From: Pseudomonadota bacterium
Lineage (GTDB): Bacteria > Pseudomonadota > Alphaproteobacteria > Sphingomonadales > Sphingomonadaceae
Length of the DNA: 36,612 bases
Direction of reading: 5' to 3'
Assembly (NCBI GenBank): GCA_018242165.1
Contig: JAFECL010000068.1
Coordinates: forward strand, 1 to 36,612
Shown: piece by piece, positions 27,722 to 29,909 of the stretch
Numbering within the stretch: position 1 is the first letter of the stretch
Layout of the letters: each line of letters begins with the position of its first letter
The notes under the pieces: generated by a model
Seen by the model: the letters and a program-made list of their open reading frames with translations, nothing else
Database searches by the model: none
What the model was told of the DNA's origin: nothing
Position numbers and translations under genes: made by a program

Positions 27722-27794
27722 CTTCCCAGAAATCAGTGCCTTGAGGAAGGTCCCCCAGCGGAGATTTCCATCCGCGTGTTCAAGGGGAACTTAC
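27722..27794 (+). promoter_or_regulatory. Leader of the peptide cassette with strong ribosome binding site
   Basis: These 73 bases between the siroheme gene and the peptide gene have lower GC at their 5' end. AAGGGGAA lies 5-12 bases before the peptide ATG and is a strong Shine-Dalgarno. TTGAGG at 27741-27746 could be a -35 box, but the hexamer 17 bases later (ATTTCC) is a poor -10, so no promoter is claimed. Small arms GCGGA/TCCGC flank the presumed -10 area. Confidence 0.4.
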
Positions 27795-27941
27795 ATGGAA
27801 CTGCCCAAGATCAATACCGCCGCCCTGCCCGATCTCGACGACCTGACCGGCGTCTATGGCAGCCAGCAGCACCCCGCCCCGGCGGCCGGTTCGGACGATG
27901 CCATCCTGATCCTGATGGCCTGGATCTACGAAATCGTCTGA
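27795..27941 (+). CDS. 48-residue precursor-like peptide, function unknown
   Basis: The peptide has three parts. The acidic N-terminal part (1-23) contains LPDLDDLTGVYGS. A Gln/His/Pro/Ala spacer (24-32) follows. The C-terminal part (33-48) starts SDD and is hydrophobic and aromatic (Met41, Trp43, Tyr45), with no Cys anywhere. The strong ribosome binding site and short length suggest a highly made product. It is followed by two hairpins and then two genes for unknown proteins, the usual order of a modified peptide (RiPP) locus. I do not recognise the family. It has no signal peptide or lipobox. Alternatives are a regulatory subunit or a small amphipathic protein. The gene itself looks real. 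Confidence 0.72.
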   Translation: MELPKINTAALPDLDDLTGVYGSQQHPAPAAGSDDAILILMAWIYEIV

Positions 27942-27946
27942 GCTTC

Positions 27947-27979
27947 GGCGCGAGATGCCTGCCCATGGCATCTCGCGCC
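27947..27979 (+). other. Strong hairpin right after the peptide gene
   Basis: A perfect 13-bp inverted repeat (GGCGCGAGATGCC at 27947-27959, GGCATCTCGCGCC at 27967-27979) with a 7-nt loop starts 5 bases after the peptide stop. No T tract follows, so it is more likely an RNA 3'-end stabiliser or attenuator than a complete terminator. Confidence 0.75.
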
Positions 27980-27995
27980 AGGCCCGGTTCGTGTC

Positions 27996-28013
27996 GCATC
28001 GCCGGTGCGATGC
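27996..28013 (+). other. Second hairpin before the downstream gene
   Basis: A perfect 7-bp inverted repeat (GCATCGC at 27996-28002, GCGATGC at 28007-28013) with a 4-nt loop ends about 9 bases before the TGGAGG ribosome binding site of the next gene. Its right arm (GCGATGCC) is close to the left arm of the first hairpin (GCGAGATGCC), so alternative pairings are possible. Confidence 0.6.
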
Positions 28014-28032
28014 CTGGAGACTGGAGGCCGCG

Positions 28033-29010
28033 ATGCAGCTGCATACCGTGATCGCGGCGCTGCGGGGCGATGATACGCCGCAGCGCCAGGCCCAGGCGGC
28101 CATGGCCGCGGGGCTGGCGCAATGGCAGGGCCAGCCGGGGCCGGCGGCGGTGCTGGCCGGGCTGGCGGCCTGCGAGGCCGGGGCCGAGCCCGACGAAGTC
28201 CCAGCGCTGGCCAGGCTGATTGCCCCCGGCGGAACGGCCGCGGCCGACTTCGCCCGGCATTTCTGCGCGGCGATGGCCGGCACGCTGGATGCCGCACCGC
28301 TGGGCCACGTGCCACTGCGCCATTTCACCGATGGTGCCAATTCCACCCTGCTGCTGGCGCGCCACGGCGCCTGGACGCTGATGCTGGTGGCGCTGGACGC
28401 TGCCGGGCTGGCCCGCAAGCCGGCGCCGCGCAGCGTCACGTTCTCTCCCACCCGGACCTGGGATGCGGTGGTGGGCGGCGCCGGCGAGGCCGAACGGGTG
28501 GTCTGCACCCCGCTGCCGGGCAGCGCGGCGCGGCTTGAAGTCACACCCGCGCGGCTGACACCCGGCGTGGTGCTGGCCCGCGACGGGCGGAGCGAGGCGC
28601 TGGTCCATCGCCGGATCGAAGGCCGGGTGGTGGTGCTGCGCCTGCAACAGCGCCTGCCCGGCAACGAACCCCTGCGCGAATACGATCTGGCCAGCGGCGC
28701 CCTGATCCACCGCGCCGCCGGATCGCCGCTGGCCAGCCGTTACGAGCTGATGGCCAACCTGCTGGGCCGGATGGGCCGCGCCGACGCCGCCCCGGCGCTG
28801 GCCCAACTGGCACTGGAACCGGGCGCCGAGGGGATGCGCTGGCAGGCCCTGCGCGAATGCCTCGGGCTCGACAGTGCCGCCGGCTTTACCGCGCTTTCGG
28901 CGATCGCCCGGCAGGGGGACGACCCGCTGGCGCTGCCCGCCGGCGCGCTGCGCGCCCAATTGCTCGAAACCCATCCCCAGCTGGAGGAGCTTGCCCCATG
29001 CCCCGCGTGA
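28033..29010 (+). CDS. Unrecognised protein, distant relative of the downstream cupin-like protein lacking its histidines
   Basis: This 325-residue protein is soluble, with no signal peptide. The N-terminal 90 residues are Ala-rich and helical. The middle (about 92-230) looks like beta structure and the last 90 residues are helical, HEAT-like. From about residue 165 it can be aligned by eye with the next protein: a hydrophobic strand, a YDLASG/FDLGAR turn, a Ser/Leu/Leu-Gly stretch, then an MR-x-x-AL helical block. It has no His-x-His motif, and of His-x3-His only the second His (His192) seems kept. I chose the ATG at 28033 because TGGAGG lies 5 bases upstream; an earlier in-frame ATG at 27955 is buried in the hairpin. 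It overlaps the next gene by 13 bases. Confidence 0.7.
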   Translation: MQLHTVIAALRGDDTPQRQAQAAMAAGLAQWQGQPGPAAVLAGLAACEAGAEPDEVPALARLIAPGGTAAADFARHFCAAMAGTLDAAPLGHVPLRHFTDGANSTLLLARHGAWTLMLVALDAAGLARKPAPRSVTFSPTRTWDAVVGGAGEAERVVCTPLPGSAARLEVTPARLTPGVVLARDGRSEALVHRRIEGRVVVLRLQQRLPGNEPLREYDLASGALIHRAAGSPLASRYELMANLLGRMGRADAAPALAQLALEPGAEGMRWQALRECLGLDSAAGFTALSAIARQGDDPLALPAGALRAQLLETHPQLEELAPCPA

Positions 29011-29909
29011 TCGACATCGCCAGCGAGAGCGCGATCAGCCTCGCGGAATGCACCGAGCGGCTGGTCGACCGGGGCTTCGACCCCGCCGACGCTGAGAGCC
29101 TCGACCATGCCGCGCTGGCGCTGCGCCAGCTGGGCAATGACCGGGGCTTCCTGGGCGACATGATCCTGGCCGAACTGGCCCGCCGCCACCGCGACGACAG
29201 TTTCGACACCGCCTATGGCCCGCAGGTGCTGATGCTGGCGCGGCCCATGGGGGCCAGCTTTTTCCTGCGCGCCAACATCTGGCCCAGCCGCGACGAGCAC
29301 ATGATGCGCGCCAGCGGCAGCGATGCCTTCGTCTATGGCCTGCCGCACGACCACAATTTCAGCTTCCTGACCCTGGGCTATTTCGGCCCGGGCTATTGGT
29401 CGGACTATTACACCTATGACTATGCCGGCACCCACGGCTGGTCGGGCGAGCCGGTCGAATTGCGGTTCACCGGGCGCGAACGGCTGGAAGAAGGGCAGAT
29501 CCGCATCTACCGCGCGCATGAAGACATCCACGCCCAGATCCCGGCCGATGCCCTGTCGGTCTCGCTCAACGTGATGCACGTATCGGGGGCGCAGGGCTGG
29601 CTGGATCAATACCGCTTCGACCTTGGCGCAAGGCAGGTCGGGGCGATCGTCTCGAACGGCGCCTCCGAAGCCTTCCTGAGGATCGCGGTGGGGCTGGGCA
29701 GTGGCGAGGCGCATGATCTTGCGACACGTTTTGCCATGCACCACCCCAGCGGGCGGATGCGGCTCCACGCGTTGGATGCCCTGGCCAGCGTGGCACAAGG
29801 CGATGCGGCGCGCGATGCGCTGTGGGCGCGGGCGGAGAATGGCGGCAGCCGGCTGGTGGCGATGGAAGCGAAGGCCCGCCGCGCGGCGCTGGAACGGATG
29901 GTCGCCTAG
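28998..29909 (+). CDS. Unrecognised cupin-like protein, possible metal-dependent enzyme acting with the peptide
   Basis: This 303-residue soluble protein has a helical N-terminus (about 10-65) and a beta-rich centre. PHDHNFSFLTLGYFGPG (His117, His119) resembles cupin motif 1, and RAHEDIHAQIP (His174, His178) followed by SVSLNV resembles motif 2. The last 75 residues are helical, HEAT-like. The aromatic stretch GYWSDYYTYDY is striking. A mononuclear metal site for an oxygenase or isomerase is plausible but inferred. GGAGGAGC precedes the ATG at 28998, which lies inside the end of the previous gene. It ends tail-to-tail with ruvX. The start is also supported by the acidic MPRVIDIASES N-terminus. 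Confidence 0.72.
   Translation: MPRVIDIASESAISLAECTERLVDRGFDPADAESLDHAALALRQLGNDRGFLGDMILAELARRHRDDSFDTAYGPQVLMLARPMGASFFLRANIWPSRDEHMMRASGSDAFVYGLPHDHNFSFLTLGYFGPGYWSDYYTYDYAGTHGWSGEPVELRFTGRERLEEGQIRIYRAHEDIHAQIPADALSVSLNVMHVSGAQGWLDQYRFDLGARQVGAIVSNGASEAFLRIAVGLGSGEAHDLATRFAMHHPSGRMRLHALDALASVAQGDAARDALWARAENGGSRLVAMEAKARRAALERMVA

Follow-up and report, generated by a model that had tools for sequence, protein, structure and literature searches.

A conserved three-gene cassette of sphingomonads encodes a short peptide, a predicted iron cupin oxygenase and its putatively metal-less paralogue

Introduction

Loci for ribosomally synthesized and post-translationally modified peptides (RiPPs) start with a short peptide gene that is followed by coupled genes for putative modifying proteins. 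The same layout is found in a 36,612-nucleotide stretch of a Sphingomonadaceae genome (contig JAFECL010000068.1 of assembly GCA_018242165.1, forward strand; hereafter the window), in which a gene for a 48-residue peptide (A) precedes two further genes (B and C). This three-gene cassette is the subject of the present analysis. In difference to described RiPP loci, the proteins of the window's cassette match no curated family, and the form of the cassette found in sphingomonads comes without known leader cleavage, exporter or product. Its relatives in the Alteromonadaceae share two more traits with RiPP loci, transporter genes and variable peptides.

For the protein C, the closest described enzymes are cysteine, 3-mercaptopropionate and mercaptosuccinate dioxygenases. 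C resembles them in its predicted fold including a helical N-terminal part, in an HDH motif with a third histidine and in the Ser of the Ser-His-Tyr motif, but His and Tyr of this motif are replaced, and C has an extra helical C-terminal part, a paralogue as partner and a Cys-free peptide beside it. In 3-mercaptopropionate dioxygenase the exchange of His for Asn is reported as very damaging (PMC10966181). ADO and the plant cysteine oxidases (PCO) act on the N-terminal cysteine of proteins and carry X-Asp-Leu where C has Ser-Asn-Met/Leu/Ile. A cupin-like hydroxylase, PbsQ, belongs to a biphenomycin-like RiPP pathway and is described as JmjC-like (PMC12257519). By this description, PbsQ and (as predicted) C would both be cupin-type enzymes hydroxylating a ribosomal peptide, whereas the MNIO, B12-radical SAM and arginase genes given alongside PbsQ in that account were not seen at this cassette.

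Results

Profile searches for A, B and C were run over 296 Sphingomonadales genomes and gave matches in 87, 96 and 98 of them, respectively, which is about a third, with all three genes in 85. The gene order is fixed and A was never detected without C (0 of 296), while one of the 96 genomes with B (G061) has a weak match and lacks C. A short putative precursor gene is thus co-inherited with adjoining genes for putative modifying proteins. In 11 genomes C was found without a profile match for A; when this profile was applied locally, the peptide was recovered in G107, G171, G233 and G271, and short open reading frames (ORFs) are present at the right place in G159, G176 and G152. No peptide was seen in G244, G295, G307 and G075. 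The initial annotation, made from the sequence of the window, had taken the three genes for a RiPP-like unit, a proposal hard to reconcile with peptides occurring without the two proteins or with a known function of the proteins; neither was encountered.

Sampling of the wider distribution was within Proteobacteria. C is present in 19 of 61 near relatives, all 19 of the window's genus, in 2/240 genomes of the class, both from the window's family, and in 10/299 genomes of the phylum, of which nine belong to this family and one (G677) does not. At least 3051 of 7996 scored candidates are homologues of C, and at least 599 homologues of B were obtained. Several C homologues are named transposase by NCBI, a name which we rejected, as there is no transposase domain, a single copy of C in the window's genome and a fixed neighbourhood. 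Two genomes carry an additional, diverged copy of B and C that is preceded by a different short peptide (G181:C24 and G110:C3; L192, L193). C is broken by an internal stop in L118 and L005/L036, and a remnant of C follows the peptide in L196, indicating that the cassette is decaying in some lineages.

In the window the cassette and its sites are placed as follows.

27782..27789, plus strand: ribosome binding site of the peptide gene (AAGGGGAA), from the sequence; many relatives are G-rich at the same place
27795..27941, plus strand: gene A, 48-residue peptide, likely substrate (codon pattern; peptide profile)
27947..27979, plus strand: perfect 13-bp inverted repeat in the A-B gap, without T-run
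27991..28013, plus strand: second, weaker hairpin in the A-B gap (RNA fold)
28033..29010, plus strand: gene B, 325 amino acids, paralogue of C
28998..29010, plus strand: overlap of B and C, 13 bases
28998..29909, plus strand: gene C, 303 amino acids, likely oxygenase according to its model
29346..29354, plus strand: HDH motif of C (H117, D118, H119), with H117 and H119 as predicted metal ligands
29529..29531, plus strand: H178 of C, predicted third metal ligand
29562..29576, plus strand: S189-L-N191-V-M193 of C, at the place of Ser-His-Tyr of thiol dioxygenases

A, B and C are real genes. Their coordinates, the ribosome binding site of A, which contains GGGGA, the peptide, both proteins and the overlap agree with the initial annotation. 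For the window's A, B and C zero Pfam or NCBIfam families were found above cut-off, and PADLOC gave no family above cut-off either; with these resources, none of the three was assigned to a described RiPP family, be it as enzyme or as precursor.

Differences between the A genes at codon positions 1/2/3 amount to 0.26/0.13/0.48 (pairwise, first 24 codons, 58 sequences including the window), and this pattern of change indicates translation of A and purifying selection on it. The peptide is built of an N-terminal LPxL...G-S motif, a variable linker and a hydrophobic tail. Among 178 peptides (166 distinct, 45-62 amino acids) 146 carry [LIV]Px[LI] near the N-terminus, 173 have their most hydrophobic nine residues within the last 45% of the sequence and 159 are free of Cys. 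In peptide set A3, G22 is invariant and followed by S/A/T. The longest uncharged run has a median of 10 residues, which would not suffice for a usual membrane helix. A clade comprising L015, L017, L018, L019 and L165 carries Cys in the peptide tail.

B and C are remote paralogues by profile comparison. With remote relatives added, hhalign aligned them over 207 columns with a probability of 95.9 (E 6e-9), whereas the sphingomonad sets alone reached a probability of only 2.0 (E 0.024). The two proteins had been called related from the start, which stands once the remote relatives are included. B is predicted to consist of a helical N-terminal part, a cupin without the metal histidines and a HEAT-like C-terminal part. 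Against the HEAT family PF13646 (cut-off 27.7 bits), the B proteins of L226 and L232 score 32.9 and 36.7 bits and that of the window 11.8; at E up to 0.1 the family is matched by 28/55 B sequences.

C was modelled as a cupin of the cysteine-dioxygenase type with three histidines and a helical C-terminal part, and thiol dioxygenases lead its fold matches. The cupin-like histidine motifs already noted in C are present and conserved, since the three histidines are retained in 177/182 loci and the HDH motif is invariant in 16/16 C sequences of alpha- and gammaproteobacteria. R91 is an invariant Arg. The Ser-His-Tyr motif itself is lacking: at S189 and N191, Ser and Asn are invariant in 16/16 sequences from two classes, with M/L/I at position 193. 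N191 is found in 178/185 loci in which the column could be aligned, and most have M or L at 193. None of 57 C sequences matched CDO_I (PF05995) at E up to 0.1, and a CDO_I match is also absent from the window's own genome. Since Ser-Asn-Met/Leu/Ile replaces Ser-His-Tyr and most peptides are free of Cys, plain thiol oxidation appears unlikely, and another oxidation would be the likeliest chemistry. An N-terminal cysteine oxidase of the ADO or PCO type was also considered and rejected, as such enzymes need a cysteine-bearing substrate.

Relatives outside the order were found in the Alteromonadaceae, the family of G677 (names Rheinheimera and Pseudoalteromonas), where C is present in 9/246 genomes. 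Within two genera it occurs in 1/5 and 1/9 genomes and is thus sporadic. Among the 13 C copies from outside the order (L210, L222, two in L223, L224-L230 and the plasmids L232 and L233), a B-like gene directly precedes C in 13/13. Candidate peptides were picked by eye as short ORFs with a ribosome binding site and lie upstream of the B-C pair in 10/13 copies. Of 2047 short ORFs scored with the sphingomonad peptide profile, the L226 peptide comes out on top (shuffles were also run), and the L232 peptide is its best match among the short ORFs of other loci. The best supported candidates are those of L226 and L232, the three similar ones of L210/L224/L225 and the two nearly identical ones of L228/L229. 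An SGGG leader-like sequence is seen in the L228/L229 pair only. Tail hydrophobicity lies at the 96th-99.7th percentile in 7/10 candidates. Between peptide and B, L226 has an inverted repeat and then T-rich sequence. In L228:7863-8955 and L229, whose peptide has the SGGG leader, the B-C pair lies near a large protein that by eye resembles a nonribosomal peptide synthetase. On the Vibrio plasmid the B-C pair (L233:8219-9775) adjoins restriction-modification genes, has no clear peptide upstream and is followed by a 60-residue ORF downstream.

Transporter genes adjoin three of these clusters. Genome G971 (L222/L223) has three B-C pairs within 15 kb together with genes for an ABC ATPase, an ABC-2-like protein, HlyD, MacB, Yip1, an S49 peptidase and a Trans_reg_C regulator. 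G975 (L226) combines Trans_reg_C and LuxR-type regulators with ABC, ABC-2-like, HlyD and MacB genes; the Trans_reg_C regulators lie beside the L222 and L226 clusters, and the ABC-2 matches of L223 and L226 score below the Pfam cut-off. The Alteromonas stellipolaris plasmid (L232) carries Yip1, HlyD, ABC and MacB genes, with an ABC ATPase and an ABC-2 gene after C. YknWXYZ, reported as the efflux pump for the Bacillus SDP peptide (PMC4887032), likewise combines Yip1, a membrane fusion protein, an ATPase and a MacB-type permease, as in G971 and on the L232 plasmid. This likeness is one of domain set and not of a tree.

For the anatomy of the locus 190 loci were examined, of which 174 have all three genes. 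B and C overlap by 13 bases in 118/174 loci and by 1 base in 35/174, and are translationally coupled through this overlap. Between A and B lie 15 bases in the median (174 loci), compared to 91 bases in the window; this gap reaches 45 bases or more in 12/174 loci, 7 of which contain a perfect inverted repeat measuring 8 bp or longer. The window's gap with its 13-bp repeat is therefore exceptional among its relatives. The 50-base stretch 27941-27990 around the repeat folds at -33.2 kcal/mol. The hairpin pair between A and B, which the initial annotation used as an argument for a RiPP locus, is thus present in the window but restricted to few lineages; the RiPP-like interpretation itself is partly supported, by co-inheritance, by fixed order and by the Alteromonadaceae pairs with variable peptides and transporters.

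In the window the cassette is flanked by a short siroheme-synthase N-domain gene on one side and by ruvX on the opposite strand on the other, as had been recognized. C and ruvX are convergent, with stop codons overlapping by 4 bases (29906-29909). The surroundings in Novosphingobium and Erythrobacteraceae, with ruvX downstream (45/72 and 74/117 loci), differ from those in Sphingomonas. Two adjacent 4HBT (PaaI-like) thioesterase genes, divergent from the cassette, were found in 44/72 and 70/117 loci (for example L023:4477-5348 and L064:7962-8770, minus strand; confirmed by Pfam on two loci) and across different outer surroundings, but are absent beside the window's cassette. One gene family directly follows C in 24/25 Sphingomonas loci; the one member tested (L064:10889-11527) is a Trans_reg_C (winged-helix) regulator by Pfam.

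Discussion

We propose, with a probability of roughly one half (0.52), that the cassette is a conserved unit in which C, a predicted iron cupin oxygenase, oxidises peptide A with help of its metal-less paralogue B. The N-terminal LPxL...G-S part of A would be a docking site that is read by the HEAT-like part of B, and the hydrophobic tail would be fed to C. With Fe(II) and O2, C may then hydroxylate or otherwise oxidise a residue of the tail, presumably one other than cysteine, which is absent from most peptides. The HlyD/MacB-type and ABC-2-like transporters next to the Alteromonadaceae clusters could export the product or protect the producer. In sphingomonads, which inherit the locus vertically in single copy and without a neighbouring pump, the product would have its effect inside or at the cell that makes it.

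Several observations weigh against this proposal. Most sphingomonad loci have neither exporter nor protease beside them, such genes being absent from their recurrent neighbourhood, and C39 double-glycine peptidases show no link to the cassette, being found in 7/20 genomes with and 8/15 without it. The alignment of C with a small set of cysteine dioxygenases gave a probability of only 7.8 (E 0.0045). In the clade with Cys-bearing tails the histidines of C are partly lost and the peptide is retained. Among the gammaproteobacterial candidates, L223, L227 and L230 are supported by one sequence each, no peptide was found for L222, one L223 pair and L233, and L232b, L223 and L228 lack an unusually hydrophobic tail. 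In addition, the conservation of A in both its N-terminal part and its tail would also fit a subunit. The peptide had been suggested as substrate or regulator of the two proteins; it may be a subunit or regulator instead of a substrate.

The main rival is indeed a peptide subunit: A would belong permanently, as small subunit or regulator, to an enzyme made of B and C that acts on a small molecule, with the tail of A serving as extra strand or anchor. We consider this unlikely, although both ends of A are conserved and A never occurs without C, most sphingomonad loci are single, vertically inherited and without a pump nearby, and the divergent 4HBT genes hint at small-molecule work. A constant subunit is at odds with the gammaproteobacterial peptides, which differ strongly between B-C pairs and in one case have a double-glycine-like leader, and with the transporter genes in three clusters, a habit of secreted or modified peptides. 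C could also be an ordinary small-molecule thiol dioxygenase with B as inactive partner and A as an unrelated or regulatory short ORF. Its leading fold matches, the three histidines and R91 agree with this, but with two of the three Ser-His-Tyr residues replaced, among them the His whose exchange for Asn is so damaging in the published mutant (PMC10966181), and with the strict tie of the peptide to C left unexplained, we regard it as quite improbable. That B and C sense or sequester the peptide as immunity or signalling proteins without modifying it is less probable still, since the conserved three-histidine site of C argues for chemistry, even if HEAT-like repeats are usual in protein binding and Trans_reg_C regulators lie near both the Sphingomonas and the Alteromonadaceae forms.

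Peptide oxidation by C would not be categorically new, because RiPPs are known as a kind and PbsQ is already described as a cupin-like hydroxylase of such a pathway (PMC12257519). A literature search found no paper on this cassette. Tentatively, and with somewhat less confidence than in the mechanism, we suggest a new class of peptide biosynthesis, in which a live/dead pair of cupins with thiol-dioxygenase fold (C/B) would together bind a short hydrophobic peptide and carry out the O2-dependent oxidation of a non-cysteine residue. Sphingomonads would have a widespread and domesticated form of it, and marine gammaproteobacteria sporadic forms that are exported and resemble bacteriocins.

If so, the cysteine-dioxygenase fold would have moved away from thiol metabolism and come to modify ribosomal peptides while an inactive twin holds the substrate, and bacteria would have a new route to modified peptides. 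About one third of the sampled Sphingomonadales genomes would then carry an undescribed peptide product, whose genes are now annotated as 'hypothetical' or 'transposase'.
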